This document shows, piece by piece, positions 173 to 7,046 of a stretch of DNA of 58,608 nucleotides. The notes under the pieces are model-generated. The model was not told the origin of the DNA and did not search any database. It worked only from the letters and a program-made list of their open reading frames with translations. The stretch covers positions 1 through 58,608 of the forward strand of contig NZ_BOOA01000054.1 in NCBI RefSeq assembly GCF_016862995.1, in the 5' to 3' direction. The position numbers and the translations under genes were made by a program. The number at the start of each line of letters is the position of its first letter. Position 1 is the stretch's first letter. This DNA comes from Acrocarpospora phusangensis. GTDB lineage: Bacteria > Actinomycetota > Actinomycetes > Streptosporangiales > Streptosporangiaceae.

Positions 173-1069
173 ATGCGGGAGGCTCACGCGGAGGACGCAC
201 GATCCGAGGCCAAGCGACTGATTCTCGACCTGCTGGGGGAGGAGCGTCCCACCGCCGGGACCCTGCTCAAAGAGGCCCAGGCCGTGCTCGGCAGGGAACG
301 CACCCGGCGGGCCGCCGACCTGGCCAGGGGCGCGCCGCTCACCCGGCGCTCGGCCGAACTGGCCGCCATCGCCGCCCTCTTCGTCGGCACCGGCGAACTC
401 GGCGCGGGCTGGTGGACGGTCAGCCGCGGCGGCTCCCTCCCGCCGCCTGAGGAGGTCCTGGTCAAAGCCCAGCCCCTCGACCCGTGGGCCGACCTGACCG
501 TACTGGAGATGCTGGCCGCCTGGATCTCCGACGACGTCGCCGACGCCATCTGGGGACCGCCCGCCGGGTCCGCCGACCTCAACTCCTGGCAGGCGGAGGA
601 CCGCGTCCAACTGCCCGAAGGCGTACGGGCCGGGACCCGGCTGGTCGTCTCGTTCGACGCCGGCGGTCGCCTGGACGCCGTCGTGGTCACCCGCAAGGAC
701 GACGACCTCGGCTCCAACCTGGACTTCTCGTCCCTGCGCTACTCCCGCCCCGCCGAAGCCCAATGGAGCTGGGGCGTCGCCGCCGGCCTCGGACCCCACC
801 CGCTCCCCGACGAACTCCCCGACCCGTACGCCGACCCCGTGGACCAGCCCGCGGCGACCGTCCTCCGCGAGTGGGCGCTCCAGCACGGCGCGACACCCAG
901 CCTCGCCGGGCCGCCCTGGGCCAACCGGGGCGACGTGATCGCCGCCGTCGAACGGGTCGACTGGATGTGGCGCAGCGCCGAATGGTTCGCCTGGTGGCGC
1001 GCCACCGCCGCCCTCATCGACGCCGAACCCGCCCAACTCGACCGCCGCCTGGAGGACCTCGCCGGCTAA
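173..1069 (+). CDS. Hypothetical protein (298 aa)
   Basis: I do not recognise this family. The frame has typical high-GC actinomycete codon use throughout. The N-terminal third (about 1-90) is charged and helical, with an Ala-rich segment around LTRRSAELAAIAALFVGTGE. The middle is Trp-rich, and the last 60 residues carry several Trp (VDWMWRSAEWFAWWRATAA), suggesting an amphipathic helical domain. No signal peptide is seen. The ATG at 173 has only a poor Shine-Dalgarno (GTAGG about 10 nt upstream). It faces the SARP gene tail to tail across 132 bp. It could be a cytosolic ligand-binding or regulatory protein, but nothing proves this. Confidence 0.6.
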   Translation: MREAHAEDARSEAKRLILDLLGEERPTAGTLLKEAQAVLGRERTRRAADLARGAPLTRRSAELAAIAALFVGTGELGAGWWTVSRGGSLPPPEEVLVKAQPLDPWADLTVLEMLAAWISDDVADAIWGPPAGSADLNSWQAEDRVQLPEGVRAGTRLVVSFDAGGRLDAVVVTRKDDDLGSNLDFSSLRYSRPAEAQWSWGVAAGLGPHPLPDELPDPYADPVDQPAATVLREWALQHGATPSLAGPPWANRGDVIAAVERVDWMWRSAEWFAWWRATAALIDAEPAQLDRRLEDLAG

Positions 1070-1201: not shown

Positions 1202-4200
1202 TCAGGCGGTCGAGTCGTTCCGGCCGGGCGTTCGTATCCCTTCGAGGCTGGCGCGCAGGTCTTCGGCCTTCGGCACGCCCAACTGGTCGTACAAGGCGAG
1301 CGCCTGGTGCCAGCACTCTTCTGCCCTGGCGACTTCGCCGGTGTTGACCAGGGAGAAACCCATCTGCTCCAGAATGCTGGCCTGCTGGTAGAGCTCGCCG
1401 GTGGTCCGGGCGAGTTCGAGTGCCTGGCCGTAGTTCTCCAGTGCGATGGTGTGGCGTCCGGCCCGCCGATGGACGTCGCCGATATGGCACAGAGCGTGCG
1501 CCTCGATGGATCGTTCCGAGATCGCGATCGCGATATTCCGAGCCTTCTGATAGTGAATAGTGGCCTCGCCGTCGCGGCCCATGCGTGCGTAGCAGCTGCC
1601 GATGTTCGCCAGCGCGTCGGCTTCCCCCCGGCGGTCGCCGATCTCCTGATAAAGCTTCACCGCGTTGCGGAAATACTGATTGGCCTCTGCCAGGTGGCCC
1701 ATGGACTGGCGCACCCTGGCGACATTGTTGAAACATATGGCCCGATGCTGCGGGCCCATATCAGGGTCTGCGGCGGCCGCCTCCTCGTAGTACTGCAGCG
1801 CGGATTCCAACCGGCCGAGCCCAAATTCGACGTCTCCCATGTTGTTCAGGCTGATCTGGAGGCCGCGCGGGTCGTTGATGGCCCGATTGCCTTCGACGGC
1901 CTGCCGAAAGAGGTCCGTGGCCTCCGTGTACTCCCCTAGATACCATCTGGCGATGCCCACGTGAGTAAGGCTTTCCACCTCGCCTGAACGGTCCCCGATG
2001 TCGCGCCGGGTCCGGAGCGCGAGCAGGCAGTATTCCAGGCCGATAGCGTATTCGGAGCTGTGGACGTGGATAACGCCGAGCAGGTCGAGCAGGTCGGCGA
2101 TGGCGTGCTGGTCGTTGAGCGTACGCTGAGTGGTCAGTGCCTGGGTGGCTTGATCGCTGGCTTCTCGCAGGTTGCCGGCTCGCCAGTGAATCCGGGCGAG
2201 ATCCGCCCGCGCGCGGGCTTCGCCCGACCGGTCGCCGAGTTCCTGCCAGGCCTCGATCGCGCGCTGGTGGAGGATGACGGCTTCCTTCCAACGTCCGGAC
2301 GTCTCCAGAAACTCGCCCAGACTGCGGGAGATCAGCCCGGCGTGGCGCGGCCACCGATCATCGGAGGCGTGTTTGGCGAGATGGAGCAGATTGTCCAATT
2401 CCGCGGTGAACCATTGCCGCGCGTCCCCTGCGTTCTCCAGCGTCGGCAGAACCGGCTGCGAATCGCCGATCTCGACCGCTGCTCGGGTGTGCCGCGGATG
2501 AAGCAGCCGGTCGGCACGATCTGCGGTGAGTAGGTAGTAGTCGAGCAACCGGGCACGCGCCGCTCGGCGTTCATGCTCCGGCCGGTGGGCGGAGAGCTGG
2601 CGGGCGTATTCGCGGATGAGATCGTGGAACTGGTACCGGCCACGACGCGGTTCCTCGATGAGGTGATGGTCCTGGAGGTCCTCCAGGATGCGTTCCGTGG
2701 TGTGCCGGTCCTCCTGGAGCAAGGCCGCTGAGCTGTCGACGTCCAATTCGGTGCCGGTGTGGAGCCCAAGTAGCCGGAACGCCTCTTGATGCGAAGGTTC
2801 GAGCCCTTGATATGACAGTTCGAAGGCGGCGGTGATCTCCACATTGGCCGCCCGGATCTCCGCCAGCCTGCGATTACCGTCACTGAGAATGGCGATCATG
2901 TCGGCGACCCGCCAGGAGGGCCGGTGCCGGAATCGGTTCCCGACGAGCTGGACCGCCATCGGAAGGTAGCCGCACAGCCGCATGAGCTCCGCGACCTCGC
3001 CGGGTTCTCTGGCGCGGTGTTGGCCGACGATCCGGCCGAACAGAGCGGCGGCGTCCTCGGGAGGCATCGCGTCGAGTGGCAGTGACTGTACATCGTCGAG
3101 TCCGGCCAGGCGGCGTCGGCTGGTGATCAGGACCAGGCAGCCGGGGGCGCCCGGGAGCAGGTGGCGGATCTGCTCATGGTCGGTGGCGCCGTCCAGGACC
3201 ACCAGCGCTCTGCGGTGAGCCAACTCCGCCCGCCACAACGTCGCACGCTCGTCCAATTCGCCCGGAATATGCGCGGCGGGGATGCCCAGCACGCTCAACA
3301 GCCGGTCCAGCGCGACAAGCGGATCCAGCGGAGCGTGCTCGGCGTCGTGACCATGCAGATCGAGATGGAACTTTCCGTCCGGGTACTGGTCGCCGAGCTG
3401 ATGCGCCAGGTGCAGGGCGAGCGTGCTCTTCCCGGCACCGGGCATCCCGTCTATGGCCAGCACGGTGACCGCCGTCTCATGAGGGGTGGCCATGGCCAGC
3501 AGTTGAGCGAGCTCGACGGTTCGCCCGGTGAAGACGGACGTGTCGCGGGGCAGATTGTTCTTCGCCCGGTCGCCGATGGTCGACTCGGACGCCAGCAGCA
3601 GCGTCGTGTCGCTGTTGAGAATGCGCTGGTGGAGCTCCCGCAGCTGCGGACCGGGCTCCGTGGCGTATTCGGAGACCACGTTGTCCCGTGCCCGTCGGTA
3701 GGCGTCCAAAGCGTCTACCTGGCGGCCACTGCGATAGAGCGCGGTCATCAGTAGTTCGACCAGCTTGTCGTTGTACGGGTAACTGTCGATCAGCTCGGAC
3801 AGCTTGACGACCATGTCGGCGTGCCGGCCCAGCTGGAGTTCGAACTGCACCCGGTCTATCGCCCCACCGAGAAGCTCATCCTCGATGCTCTTTCTGGTGC
3901 TGGTGGCCCACGATCCGGACAGGCCTGCCAATGGTTCTCCGCGCCACAGCTCGCCCGCCTCGTTCAGCAGCCGTACGGCTACTCGCACATCGCCACTTCG
4001 GGCAATGGCCCGCGCTTGCGCGCGCAATTGCCTGAAGCGGATGTAATCCACGTTCTCCGGATCGGTCTCCAGCGTGTACGCTCCGGCGCGATTGCTGATC
4101 TGGGCGTCGGCCCCCAAATTATGGAGACGATTCCTAAGCCGGGTGACTTTCGAGTACAGAGTGCCACGCGGGTTATCTGGTGGATCACCGTCCCATACTC

Positions 4201-4342
4201 GGGCGACGAGAGTCTCGATTGGGACCGGCTGACCAGGAGTGAGCGCGAGTGCAGCCAGTACATGGCGTTCTCCGGCCCACCAGACGGCATGGCGTGTCTG
4301 TTTGTCCCAGAGCTCGATCGGGCCAAGTATCCGGAATTCCAT
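1202..4342 (-). CDS. AfsR/SARP-family regulator with NB-ARC ATPase and TPR repeats
   Basis: A 1046-aa transcription activator. An OmpR-like winged helix (about 1-95, beginning MEFRILGPIELW) is followed by a bacterial transcriptional activation domain (about 96-243). Next is a STAND/NB-ARC ATPase with Walker A GMPGAGKST near residue 300 and Walker B LVVLD. The C-terminal third is tetratricopeptide repeats (for example YLGEYTEATDLFRQAVEGN). Full-length AfsR-like proteins of this layout switch on specialised metabolism when the sensor domains are triggered. The ATG at 4342 is chosen over the upstream in-frame ATG at 4375 because AAAGGGG lies 5-6 nt before it and homologues begin with this motif. 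A small ORF sits 63 bp upstream on the same strand and may be co-transcribed. No biosynthetic cluster is evident in the window. Confidence 0.95.
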   Translation of the reverse strand: MEFRILGPIELWDKQTRHAVWWAGERHVLAALALTPGQPVPIETLVARVWDGDPPDNPRGTLYSKVTRLRNRLHNLGADAQISNRAGAYTLETDPENVDYIRFRQLRAQARAIARSGDVRVAVRLLNEAGELWRGEPLAGLSGSWATSTRKSIEDELLGGAIDRVQFELQLGRHADMVVKLSELIDSYPYNDKLVELLMTALYRSGRQVDALDAYRRARDNVVSEYATEPGPQLRELHQRILNSDTTLLLASESTIGDRAKNNLPRDTSVFTGRTVELAQLLAMATPHETAVTVLAIDGMPGAGKSTLALHLAHQLGDQYPDGKFHLDLHGHDAEHAPLDPLVALDRLLSVLGIPAAHIPGELDERATLWRAELAHRRALVVLDGATDHEQIRHLLPGAPGCLVLITSRRRLAGLDDVQSLPLDAMPPEDAAALFGRIVGQHRAREPGEVAELMRLCGYLPMAVQLVGNRFRHRPSWRVADMIAILSDGNRRLAEIRAANVEITAAFELSYQGLEPSHQEAFRLLGLHTGTELDVDSSAALLQEDRHTTERILEDLQDHHLIEEPRRGRYQFHDLIREYARQLSAHRPEHERRAARARLLDYYLLTADRADRLLHPRHTRAAVEIGDSQPVLPTLENAGDARQWFTAELDNLLHLAKHASDDRWPRHAGLISRSLGEFLETSGRWKEAVILHQRAIEAWQELGDRSGEARARADLARIHWRAGNLREASDQATQALTTQRTLNDQHAIADLLDLLGVIHVHSSEYAIGLEYCLLALRTRRDIGDRSGEVESLTHVGIARWYLGEYTEATDLFRQAVEGNRAINDPRGLQISLNNMGDVEFGLGRLESALQYYEEAAAADPDMGPQHRAICFNNVARVRQSMGHLAEANQYFRNAVKLYQEIGDRRGEADALANIGSCYARMGRDGEATIHYQKARNIAIAISERSIEAHALCHIGDVHRRAGRHTIALENYGQALELARTTGELYQQASILEQMGFSLVNTGEVARAEECWHQALALYDQLGVPKAEDLRASLEGIRTPGRNDSTA

Positions 4343-4405
4343 TGGAGCCCCTTTGTAGGGGACAGGACTTTCCAACGAAAGCTTCTCACCATTGGATAGG
4401 GAAAT

Positions 4406-4657
4406 CTAGAAGTAACCTCCCTGAAGGTGAACTGTAAGGTTTCCGTCTTCGCTGAGCGTCACGCCGGCGATGGGAACGATCCACTGATCGCTGTTCCTGA
4501 TCGAGTTACCTGCCGCCACCGAATGGTATTCACCGGAGTCCTCCTCATGTTCTGCTCCTAGATCGACATAGCGCACCCGAATATGTAACATGTGGTTCTG
4601 TACCAGCGTGATGGGGTATTGTTTCCTGGCCGATAAGATTTGCGGCAAATCGGACAA
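4406..4657 (-). CDS. Small hypothetical protein upstream of the SARP gene
   Basis: Up to 83 aa, same strand as the SARP regulator and ending 63 bp before its start, so probably one transcript. The sequence is rich in beta-type residues (WIVPIAGVTLSEDGNLTVHL) and ends in Gly-Gly-Tyr-Phe; no family is recognised. The longest frame starts at a TTG (4657) with no clear Shine-Dalgarno; an internal ATG at 4591 would give 61 aa and is equally weakly supported. Base composition is well below that of the neighbours, so codon statistics help little. Its position suggests a partner or modulator of the SARP protein, which is inference only. Confidence 0.45.
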   Translation of the reverse strand: MSDLPQILSARKQYPITLVQNHMLHIRVRYVDLGAEHEEDSGEYHSVAAGNSIRNSDQWIVPIAGVTLSEDGNLTVHLQGGYF

Positions 4658-4706
4658 TTGGTTATAGGCAGACCTAAATCATCATAGGAAGATCAAGGTG
4701 CGTGAT

Positions 4707-4802
4707 ATGACGCCGCAAGATGGCGAAGCGACGCCGCTGCCGAACGGGGAGGAAGCTCCCATGTTCATGTTCCACGTGATCTTGATGCTGCTTGTCCGCT
4801 AG
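4707..4802 (+). CDS. Putative 31-aa peptide divergent from the SARP unit
   Basis: An ATG-initiated 31-codon ORF preceded by AAGGTG six nt upstream. It starts 50 bp from the divergent small ORF, and nine nt after its stop comes a very strong hairpin, so it looks like a self-contained transcription unit. The first half is acidic and Pro/Gly-containing (MTPQDGEATPLPNGEEAP); the second is strongly hydrophobic and ends in Arg (MFMFHVILMLLVR). That layout fits a secreted signal, a membrane-active micropeptide or a modified-peptide precursor. No maturation enzyme is seen nearby. It was called on context, not homology. Confidence 0.4.
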   Translation: MTPQDGEATPLPNGEEAPMFMFHVILMLLVR

Positions 4803-4810
4803 GTTCCGTG

Positions 4811-4861
4811 CTCAGGCACAGAAGGTCCCCCACCGTAGGGTCGGGGGACCTTCGTGCTGAG
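4811..4861 (+). terminator. Long stem-loop after the 31-aa ORF
   Basis: The arm at 4811-4831 (CTCAGGCACAGAAGGTCCCCC) pairs with GGGGGACCTTC-GTGC-TGAG at 4843-4861: an uninterrupted 11-bp core plus an outer GCAC/GTGC and CTCA/TGAG extension broken only by small bulges. There is no U-tract, as is common for actinomycete terminators. Confidence 0.7.
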
Positions 4862-5229
4862 GGGGTGGAACCGTTCGGCTCTCCACTGTCTGCTGGGTTC
4901 GTGTCCGGCTCCAGGCGCTGCCCGTGTCGCCCGGAGGCCCTTCGTGTAAGCGACTCGCCCCCGTCCAGACAGGAGGGGTCGTTTGGGGAGGGGAGGTGTA
5001 CATGACGACCTCGCGCAACAAGATCTGCGGAAGTCGAAAGTACGCTCACGTAGAAATATGACCACCTGACGGCAGATTTATATCCCCCATCCGGCCTACC
5101 GCACGTGCTGTACAAAGGGATGATCGTCACATTGGGCCGTTGTCGTGGTGAGTTTCGGGTATCATTTGCGCAATAGGAACAATTTGCTGTTCGGCGTAAT
5201 GGGGCCTTTCCGAAAGTAGTCTTCCGGCC
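4862..5229 (+). other. Gene-poor, lower-GC stretch with one possible 19-codon ORF
   Basis: Between the hairpin and the nuclease gene no sizeable coding frame stands out. A 19-codon ORF at 5002-5061 (MTTSRNKICGSRKYAHVEI) has a near-ideal Shine-Dalgarno (GGGAGG, five nt spacing) but no other support. The part after 5050 is distinctly AT-rich for this genome and probably holds the promoter of the nuclease gene; I could not place a convincing -35/-10 pair. The base composition suggests acquired or decayed DNA. Confidence 0.35.
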
Positions 5230-6141
5230 ATGGTCACTCCCAGGCATGAGGGGCTAACCGGAATAGCCACCCTCGATGCCGGCATCACCGCAGAGGCCCT
5301 GCGCGCGCTTTTCGACCTGTCGATCCCCAACGGTGAGGCGCGCGTTCTGTCCTGCGATCTGTCCGAAGCCGTCCCCGCCGTGTATCGCGCGGACGCCGCC
5401 ATCCTGTACGCCTCCAGGGACACCAGCCTCGGTGTCATCGTCGAAGTGCAGCTTCGACCGGACCACCGCAAACACGACAGCTGGCTGGCCTATATCGCGA
5501 ATCTTCGTGCTCGCGACCACACGCCGACCTGTCTCGTGGTCATCTGCCCCAACCGTCAGACCGCCACGTGGGCGTCTCTTCCGATCGAAACCGGCCATCC
5601 CGGGCTCACTCTGGTACCCCTGGTGATCGGCCCCGACAACACCTCGGTGATCACCGACGTCGCCGAAGCGGTCGGGAACATCGGCCTAGCCGCCATCGCG
5701 GCCATCACCCACAGCGAGAATCCCCAGATCAGGGCCATTCTTGCCGCCCTCACCGAAGCCCTGAACCACATCGACCCGGCCGCCGCCCAAAGGTACGCTG
5801 AATACGTCACCGTGGCTCTGACCGGCACCGCCAAAACCGAAATGGAGCAGCTCATGGCCACCAAGTCGTACCTCTACCAGGGGAAGTACGCCCAGAGCCT
5901 CATCGAGGAGGGCAGGGCGAGCGGTATCGCCGAAGGAAGGGCGAGCGGTATCGCCGAAGGCAGGGCGAGTGGTATCGCTGAAGGCGAGGCGAAGTCGCTG
6001 CTTTTCGTTCTTGAGAAGCGGGGTGTGGAGCTGTCCGAGACCGATCGAAAGAACGTTCTGAGCTGCACCGATCAGGAATTGCTGACCGCCTGGCTGGAGC
6101 GGGCCCTCACGGCGAGGTCGGTCGAGGACGTATTCGGTTGA
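5230..6141 (+). CDS. PD-(D/E)XK nuclease-like protein with Gly-x3 repeat linker
   Basis: A 303-aa protein of a type common in multiple copies in actinomycetes and cyanobacteria. The N-terminal part has Asp55 (RADAAIL) followed by Glu72 and Gln74 in VIVEVQL, the D-(15-20)-ExQ variant of the PD-(D/E)XK nuclease core also seen in Rpn/DUF4351-type proteins. A helical region follows, then three copies of an EGRASGIA unit (about 227-250) with Gly every fourth residue, then a C-terminal helix-hairpin domain (VELSETDRKNVLSCTDQELL). The likely role is DNA cleavage or recombination promotion. The ATG at 5230 has a poor Shine-Dalgarno. A degenerate copy of its C-terminus lies immediately downstream. Confidence 0.65.
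   Translation: MVTPRHEGLTGIATLDAGITAEALRALFDLSIPNGEARVLSCDLSEAVPAVYRADAAILYASRDTSLGVIVEVQLRPDHRKHDSWLAYIANLRARDHTPTCLVVICPNRQTATWASLPIETGHPGLTLVPLVIGPDNTSVITDVAEAVGNIGLAAIAAITHSENPQIRAILAALTEALNHIDPAAAQRYAEYVTVALTGTAKTEMEQLMATKSYLYQGKYAQSLIEEGRASGIAEGRASGIAEGRASGIAEGEAKSLLFVLEKRGVELSETDRKNVLSCTDQELLTAWLERALTARSVEDVFG
5908..5979 (+). repeat. Three in-frame 24-bp tandem repeats
   Basis: Units at 5908-5931, 5932-5955 and 5956-5979 differ by four bases or fewer (unit core GGGCGAGCGGTATCGCC) and encode the EGRASGIA repeats of the nuclease-like protein. Copy number can change without breaking the frame. Confidence 0.9.
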
Positions 6142-6153
6142 AGGGAGACCGGC

Positions 6154-6432
6154 GCAGCCCCTGAAGGGGATTCTGGGCGTAAAACATCCGGTTACCGGAA
6201 AGAGCACGCTCTGAACCTCATGCTGGAAGCCATAGCGAGAGGTAAGGCGCGAGGTACGGCCAACTATCTTCTCCTGTGTCTGTATAAGGCTGGCCTGGAA
6301 TTGTCTGAGGCTGATCGCGAGCGGGTTCTCAGCTGTACAGATCAGGAACAACTGGCTATCTGGGTGAAGCGGGCGCCGTACGTGGACAGGGCAGAGGACA
6401 TGTTCACTGACCCAGATCTTTCGCGATCTTGA
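6154..6432 (+). pseudogene. Degenerate duplicate of the nuclease C-terminal half
   Basis: From an ATG at 6220 the frame reads 70 aa, but similarity to the upstream gene starts earlier, about 6163-6183, where the same frame (KTSGYRKEHALNLMLE) aligns without gaps to KSYLYQGKYAQSLIEE of the intact gene. The Gly-x3 segment is shortened to ARGKARGTA, and the tail is nearly the same motif (LELSEADRERVLSCTDQEQL versus VELSETDRKNVLSCTDQELL). The nuclease core is missing. It is therefore a remnant of a tandem paralogue, unless a short protein is still made from 6220. The 236 bp after it (6433-6668) hold nothing I can assign. Confidence 0.7.
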
Positions 6433-6668: not shown

Positions 6669-7046
6669 GTGGCCACACCAGGTGAGACCCCCCTTGACTT
6701 GGACGCGATGATGGTGGCCGATGACAGGACCGAGGCCGATGTGGATGCCGCGCGGTGGCGGTACGGGTTCTATGTCGTGCTCACCGGATTGGTTGTGATC
6801 TTGGTCGGGTTCGCGGTGGCCGTGTTGCGGACCGGGGAGGCCGGGACGTTGTTCGCGGGGCTGTCCGGGGTCGTGGGGACGATCATCGGGGCGTACTTCG
6901 GGGTGCAGGCGGGTCAGTCGGGGAAGGACAAGGCCGAACTGGAGTTGCGCCGGGCCAACGACCGGGCGACCCGGATGGCCGCGTACGTGGGGCCGCAGAA
7001 CATCGACCAGATCATGGGGCCGGTGCGCAGGCCGACCCGGGGCTGA
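6669..7046 (+). CDS. Small membrane protein with two TM segments
   Basis: 125 aa, GTG start at 6669 with an excellent Shine-Dalgarno (AGGAGG, four nt spacing). An acidic N-terminus (about 1-30) is followed by two hydrophobic helices (YGFYVVLTGLVVILVGFAVA and a Gly-rich GLSGVVGTIIGAYFGVQAG). A cytoplasmic charged helix follows (GKDKAELELRRANDRATRMA). The second TM with its GAYFG motif resembles small actinomycete proteins of unknown function. It is free-standing: the next gene starts 91 bp later. Confidence 0.75.
   Translation: MATPGETPLDLDAMMVADDRTEADVDAARWRYGFYVVLTGLVVILVGFAVAVLRTGEAGTLFAGLSGVVGTIIGAYFGVQAGQSGKDKAELELRRANDRATRMAAYVGPQNIDQIMGPVRRPTRG

Follow-up and report, generated by a model that had tools for sequence, protein, structure and literature searches.

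A hydrophobic Met/Phe-rich short frame divergent from a large SARP regulator in Acrocarpospora: a candidate micropeptide gene

The window, i.e., the whole 58,608-nucleotide stretch of Acrocarpospora phusangensis DNA that was analysed (contig NZ_BOOA01000054.1), contains a large SARP regulator and, divergent from it, a short hydrophobic frame at a place where a gene is very probably present. The features discussed here are listed below.

173..1069, + strand: left flank, 298-aa protein, family unassigned (no Pfam, NCBIfam or PADLOC match at E 0.01)
1202..4345, - strand: SARP regulator, 1047 aa (DNA-binding domain, BTAD, NB-ARC, TPR)
4359..4445, - strand: conserved SARP upstream region, carrying a single AACCTTACAG copy about 96 nt ahead of the SARP start
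4406..4657, - strand: 83-aa ORF, judged not a gene (TTG start; nearest AGG 15 nt away)
4651..4680, + strand: possible promoter of the peptide gene (-35-like CGGACA 4651-4656; -10-like TAAATC 4675-4680)
4707-4802, + strand: 31-codon ORF, MTPQDGEATPLPNGEEAPMFMFHVILMLLVR (AAGG at 4695-4698, 8 nt before the ATG)
4707..4760, + strand: acidic N-terminal extension of the 31-aa reading, MTPQDGEATPLPNGEEAP (same AAGG)
4761..4802, + strand: 13-codon hydrophobic frame, the best-supported coding part, MFMFHVILMLLVR (GGGGAGG 4746-4752, 8 nt before the ATG at 4761)
4811..4861, + strand: hairpin behind the stop codon, probably a terminator (11-bp perfect stem 4821-4831/4843-4853)
6669..7046, + strand: right flank, 125-aa protein (TM gene; probable TM helices, read from sequence)

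The regulator combines DNA-binding, BTAD, NB-ARC and TPR domains in one chain, as large (AfsR-like) SARPs do, and its nearest solved chain is AfsR (8k60/8jke, E about 1e-122). It scored 591.8 bits against the NCBIfam AfsR model NF053617, below the cut-off of 1430, and is thus not assigned to AfsR proper. Among the four other Acrocarpospora genomes compared, A. corrugata (G002), A. macrocephala (G003) and A. pleiomorpha (G004) carry an orthologue (identities of 72, 71 and 69% over the three), and the remaining one (G001) has only a 51% SARP paralogue. When the N-terminal 348 aa were searched across the order, matches at E 1e-110 came from 12 of 297 genomes, with at most 57% identity outside the genus. 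The plasmid search returned 105 records, all below 60% identity (36.9% for the best-ranked one).

An earlier note on this DNA had described a short ORF at 4707-4802 with a Shine-Dalgarno sequence and a hydrophobic tail, directly followed by a long hairpin and unlike the rest of the window in base composition. Our analysis bears out this description, with the ORF back to back with the SARP gene and a G+C content of 51.8% at 4351-4802 versus 70.3% across the whole window. In 2000 dinucleotide shuffles of 4642-4870, the full combination (a Shine-Dalgarno sequence, an ORF of 12-40 aa, a tail at least 75% hydrophobic and a hairpin below -30 kcal/mol, all thresholds chosen after the case was known) never occurred; it was found 9 times when the hairpin was left aside, and 1064 shuffles had a Shine-Dalgarno sequence and an ORF alone. 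The ribosome site is stronger at the 13-codon start (4761) than at 4707, and a frame of 13-14 codons with a good Shine-Dalgarno sequence (in A. phusangensis and A. pleiomorpha) fits at least as well as the 31-codon reading. Transcription of the unit is likely and its translation probable. Since no Sec-type signal or basic N-terminus could be read from the peptide sequence, its export is doubtful.

The 83-aa ORF, which had been proposed as a small gene preceding the SARP, did not hold up. Indeed, it overlaps the conserved SARP upstream DNA, and tblastn against the three orthologous loci only returned scraps of 4-57 residues (best E 1.1), of which those at the matching place (7-20 residues) reflect this conserved upstream DNA. 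Two scraps in A. macrocephala lie in different frames and 74 nt apart, versus 81 nt in the window, so the frame is broken there. This ORF was rejected as a gene because it has no coherent homologue in the three loci and its TTG start has no usable Shine-Dalgarno sequence. Any protein product is neither the 83-aa one nor firmly the 31-aa one.

The hairpin, which extends from about 4811 to 4858, is a probable terminator. The fold of the 92 nt past the stop codon gave z values of -3.9 in A. phusangensis, -4.1 in A. pleiomorpha, -4.75 in A. macrocephala and -0.8 in A. corrugata, i.e., it is significant in three of the four genomes and not in the last. No U-tract follows the hairpin of the window (0 terminator-like sites by the T-run rule), and short T-runs were seen after it only in A. 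macrocephala and A. pleiomorpha. Note that folds of -30 to -42 kcal/mol past short frames are also present at 9 of 26 control loci in G+C-rich DNA, and being that frequent elsewhere, such folds alone say little. As for the possible promoter, GGACA/GACA and TAAAT-like bases 17-19 nt apart were recognised by eye in the orthologues, most weakly in A. macrocephala, and the consensus scan did not pick positions 4651..4680. In the peptide promoter of A. corrugata, a GGACATG-8nt-CATGTCC palindrome lies between the -35-like and -10-like elements; judged by eye, it is imperfect in A. pleiomorpha and decayed in A. phusangensis, and it may be a possible operator of another regulator.

The earlier note had proposed to look for the same layout beside related SARPs. 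At all three orthologues, a divergent short frame with ATG-TTY-ATS-TTY (Met-Phe-Met/Ile-Phe) was found upstream of the SARP gene, on the opposite strand, with a hydrophobic stretch and then a hairpin. The counterpart frame is MLTLILLGPWMFMF in A. pleiomorpha (AGGAGG 10 nt ahead), MRKEEPGQDGTEDPMFIFYLFGFGLLP in A. macrocephala (13-codon counterpart MFIFYLFGFGLLP) and ...LMTVWMFMF in A. corrugata. Its start codons differ among genomes, the ribosome sites are weak in A. macrocephala and A. corrugata, and the Met/Phe core opens the short frame in A. phusangensis and A. macrocephala but closes it in the two others. The same note had named a lack of conservation of the 31-codon frame as refuting its proposal; the first 18 codons fail this test, A. 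macrocephala alone having some resemblance to the acidic extension (MRKEEPGQDGTEDP). In alignment A2, the core has 9 of 12 columns invariant, compared with 2 of 54 for the extension and 3 of 30 for the part past the core; when MAFFT was given just the gene body, it left the cores unaligned (4 of 12 invariant, versus 1-6 in 300 shuffles). Hence, the conserved part is the short hydrophobic stretch alone and not the 31-codon frame itself, and this recurrence concerns four genomes only.

The recurrence was also quantified with the 12-mer ATGTTCATGTTC, which was sought in the 700-nt stretches preceding the three orthologous SARP genes. Its best counterparts there add up to 3 mismatches, compared with 4-10 in 300 ORF shuffles (one case of 4) and 6-10 in 300 region shuffles. 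All three differences fall at third codon positions, a weak result by itself because the events are few. This test replaces a previous one on regions cut around the core (3 mismatches versus 8-12 in 150 shuffles), which was too lenient because the regions had been picked by the motif. Each of the four genomes with a SARP orthologue contains the pattern YSSATGTTYATSTTY a single time and, among the matches listed, always at this place; being drawn from the same four genomes, it shows uniqueness and is not an independent discovery. In the family search, the 15-mer pattern was present in at least 189 of 297 genomes. Thirty pattern loci were fetched, of which four are the orthologous places and 26 lie elsewhere in the family; no SARP was detected within the fetched flanks of these 26, which are the control loci mentioned above (tblastn, E 1e-5), and in nine of them the frame ends at most 20 codons from the motif, all nine belonging to two recurrent frame types.

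Searches beyond the orthologues gave little. With the peptide as query, 56 of 149 genomes matched at E <=10, mostly within longer frames (own match 1.4e-16, best other 0.064), and A. phusangensis has no other copy of the region beyond the self-match of the hairpin and 16 short matches at E >=0.26. A screen of 31 SARP upstream regions for a Shine-Dalgarno sequence, a short ORF, a hydrophobic tail and a fold flagged A. phusangensis and A. pleiomorpha (each with an unrelated frame too), as well as L013, L015, L073 and L081 (within long divergent frames) and L086; its filters missed A. corrugata and A. macrocephala. No common short frame was noticed in the upstream alignment of seven SARP relatives at ~40% identity, and the three-frame translation of L036, a 63%-identical truncated paralogue of A. 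pleiomorpha, contains no MF[MI]F frame. Spread of the layout beyond the genus is not supported. Instead, in 23 of the 35 SARP loci compared (a subset of those fetched), which share with ours a related SARP and the divergent arrangement, the place opposite the regulator is taken by a related gene of ~420 aa; the other 12 loci lack this gene, and the micropeptide is known from just four of them, those of Acrocarpospora. The ~420-aa protein (L097:1558-2841, - strand, and its counterparts) has no Pfam or NCBIfam name and forms a conserved pair with the SARP; the ORF after it in L097 is presumably PfkB-kinase-like. So far as searched, the micropeptide is confined to one genus.

The unit diverges fast. 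Between the sisters A. macrocephala and A. pleiomorpha, the SARPs are 86% identical (79% at 4-fold sites in common codon boxes) and the DNA before and within the TM gene keeps 55-59 identical positions per 60-position bin; the figure falls to 15-37 per bin, gaps included, in a stretch of about 600 bp that surrounds the peptide gene. Their relation is near random in the promoter (z 0.1), in the leader and ORF (z 0.6, with 53 of 200 shuffles equal or better) and in the middle part (z 1.2), and it remains in the terminator part (z 3.5) and over the whole -135..+110 stretch (z 3.8, 0 of 200). Despite this near-random promoter and ORF, both sisters have kept the Met/Phe core. Such a divergence of the micropeptide unit between sisters is unusual in itself and points to selection or exchange.

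Pairwise comparisons over the four genomes give a different grouping for each part. The ORF part pairs A. phusangensis with A. macrocephala (z 5.4) and A. pleiomorpha with A. corrugata (z 4.0), the four other pairs having z values of 0.6-2.0, and this pairing runs against the SARP identities; the same two pairs lead over the whole stretch (7.8 and 8.0 versus 3.8-4.9). The promoter part groups A. phusangensis with A. pleiomorpha (z 6.8) and the latter with A. corrugata (z 6.1), the four other pairs ranging from -0.4 to 2.0 (only 1.2 for A. phusangensis with A. corrugata), and the terminator part links A. macrocephala to all three others (3.3-4.1). The grouping of the ORF part would fit old allelic types, but those of the promoter and terminator parts depart from it, and over these four genomes the peptide region is a mosaic. 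In the SARP itself, 34 residue sites agree with the expected tree, 8 with the grouping of the ORF and 3 with the alternative one; no co-variation with the peptide type is visible, as only two of the 8 sites are in the TPR part and the 8 form no cluster.

The genes on both sides indicate how the unit may have arrived. The 298-aa gene and the TM gene adjoin in G001, with about 0.1 kb between them. Among 15 TM-gene loci of other genera (L159-L173), the 298-aa gene lies 148 and 254 bp away in G067 and G029, with no SARP between, and about 1.1 kb away in G009; the 12 others have no 298-aa gene within the fetched flanks. Because the flanks adjoin in G001, G067 and G029, the SARP and peptide genes would most simply be an insert between two genes. 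No other gene was recognised between the flanks in A. pleiomorpha (ORFs >=110 aa), and extra ORFs are present behind the SARP in A. macrocephala and A. corrugata. The window has an extra pair at 5230-6432, composed of an ORF with tandem EGRASGIA repeats (5230-6141) and a 70-aa ORF (6220-6432) that, as judged by eye, is similar to the C-terminal part of the first; the pair was not seen here among the ORFs of the three orthologous loci and gives the impression of a partial duplication next to the SARP unit. In A. corrugata, the SARP and the 298-aa gene are separated by an additional gene for a 646-aa protein with solute-binding and von Willebrand A domains (L096:6217-8157). The insertion spot seems to gather genes.

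Regarding regulation, the word AACCTTACNG (at most one mismatch) is found 96-101 nt before the SARP gene in all four genomes, and the three paralogues at ~51% have two or three such words 11-12 nt apart (at most two mismatches). Upstream of the SARPs of L013, L014 and L015, words similar to GAACCTTGCGG/GAACCTTACTG are repeated every 11-12 nt and would probably be the SARP autoregulatory box of these paralogues. A further exact copy of the SARP box lies inside the hairpin of A. macrocephala, and copies with two mismatches occur at -497, -460, -295 and -78 (other strand) in A. phusangensis, at -278 in A. macrocephala and at -275 in A. corrugata, about as often as expected by chance from a hand estimate. 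According to the available part of PMC10936776, SARP sites consist of direct repeats spaced by 11 or 22 bp, with 8 bp between the final repeat and the -10 element. The four upstream regions and the three paralogues were scanned with this rule (at most one mismatch, spacer 7-9). In none of the four genomes do such repeats face the peptide promoter; facing the SARP gene, the scan found a canonical site in the paralogue G001b and one doubtful 22-bp match in A. phusangensis. This negative outcome weighs little because the scan is insensitive, being also blank in two of the three paralogues. Control of the peptide gene by the SARP is not supported by sequence under the rule as given in that source.

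Our best reading, to which we assign a probability of about 0.36, is that a short gene of its own encodes a hydrophobic Met/Phe-rich micropeptide and forms a two-gene cassette with the divergent SARP-STAND regulator. The short gene (a probable promoter, 8-31 codons and a hairpin) would produce the micropeptide, the cassette would have been inserted between two unrelated genes, and the micropeptide would act as a dedicated small partner of the regulator, most plausibly as a ligand of its TPR/NB-ARC part or as a modulator of that part; the two genes would then constitute a private control loop. That the peptide gene serves the SARP, as suggested by their shared presence and adjacency, has an even chance in our estimate. 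Designating the micropeptide as the ligand of the SARP is a guess and rather unlikely to be right; neither the insensitive search for a SARP site at the peptide promoter nor that for co-varying SARP residues, both of them indirect tests, supports it. Less likely still is a transferable two-gene 'pherotype' cassette of actinobacteria, amounting to a peptide-gated SARP, in which the TPR domain of the SARP-STAND regulator would sense a dedicated, fast-diversifying Met/Phe-rich micropeptide whose specificity types depart from the species tree.

Alternatively, the micropeptide could be an output and not an input, either as a small effector downstream of the SARP or as a membrane-active peptide, a tentative explanation that we nevertheless take seriously. 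In Streptomyces coelicolor, AfsR acts through afsS, which encodes a protein of 63 aa (PMC6988585), and in the available parts of PMC6988585 and PMC10936776 this small-protein gene is a key, direct target of AfsR, itself a large SARP with NB-ARC and TPR domains and the nearest solved relative of ours; a hydrophobic product of 13 residues could also act at the membrane. The Acrocarpospora frame differs from AfsS in having 8-31 codons and in being divergent and hydrophobic. Against this explanation, the peptide promoter of the four genomes has no direct repeats of the SARP type facing it, a weak objection as the scan found a site in only one of the three paralogues. In addition, PADLOC recognised no defence family among five proteins (the SARP hit a generic TPR model with four further weak matches, and the other four proteins had none).

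A small untranslated RNA with its terminator, in which the open frame would be incidental, appears improbable. It would account for a short unit with a hairpin and for translation starts that are not conserved. However, the body of the unit has no unusual fold in any of the four genomes (z values of -1.4, -0.1, 0.35 and 0.33, from single-sequence folds), which favours an mRNA, no Rfam match was found in 4000-5400, and the common word reads as codons, with its three differences at third positions. We consider a chance ORF in fast-drifting intergenic DNA to be equally improbable. The near-random promoter and ORF of the two sisters, the frequency of a Shine-Dalgarno sequence with a small ORF in shuffled DNA and the folds after short frames at the control loci all speak for it, but chance accounts poorly for a full combination absent from every shuffle, for the recurrence at three of three orthologues and for a 12-mer that is closer than in both sets of 300 shuffles (3 mismatches versus at least 4 and at least 6). 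Lastly, a leader peptide with an attenuator of the downstream TM gene, suggested by the short ORF followed by a hairpin and by a TM gene that follows the core after about 180, 230 and 320 nt in A. corrugata, A. macrocephala and A. pleiomorpha, is very improbable, as about 1.9 kb and another ORF intervene in the window, the TM gene exists without a SARP orthologue in G001 and other genera, and the DNA directly before it is conserved between the two sisters although the peptide unit is not.

The cassette reading can be compared with known pairs of regulators and small peptides. Rgg is a TPR protein. Its streptococcal genes offer a similar layout, since a short hydrophobic peptide gene (shp) is adjacent to and divergent from rgg in two of three groups (SHP groups I and II), as described in the available part of PMC3679016, and Acrocarpospora has an open frame in the corresponding position. 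Here, in contrast, the putative receptor would be a SARP-STAND protein and not Rgg, and the peptide has no basic N-terminus. The FxSxx-COOH and HaaA cyclophane RiPP systems likewise combine a short peptide with a TPR protein. The NB-ARC-TPR part of our SARP stays below the NCBIfam cut-offs of both corresponding models (FxSxx_TPR, 110.2 of 300; HaaT, 484.1 of 1125), and the insert differs from these systems in having no recognised modifying-enzyme gene and a peptide without the FxSxx ending. In the literature, the main text of the 2024 AfsR structure paper (PMC10936776), so far as it was available, names ATP binding and phosphorylation as inputs and does not use the word 'ligand', and that of PMC9765709, likewise available in part, treats the RRNPPA systems of Firmicutes without SARP or NB-ARC. 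We found nothing in the open-access literature that pairs a SARP or NB-ARC-TPR protein with a small peptide or pheromone, which is no proof of absence.

Altogether, if the regulator does travel with its own micropeptide, the two would form a clean pair for experiments on what large SARPs sense, and the same pair would provide a handle for switching large SARPs on.
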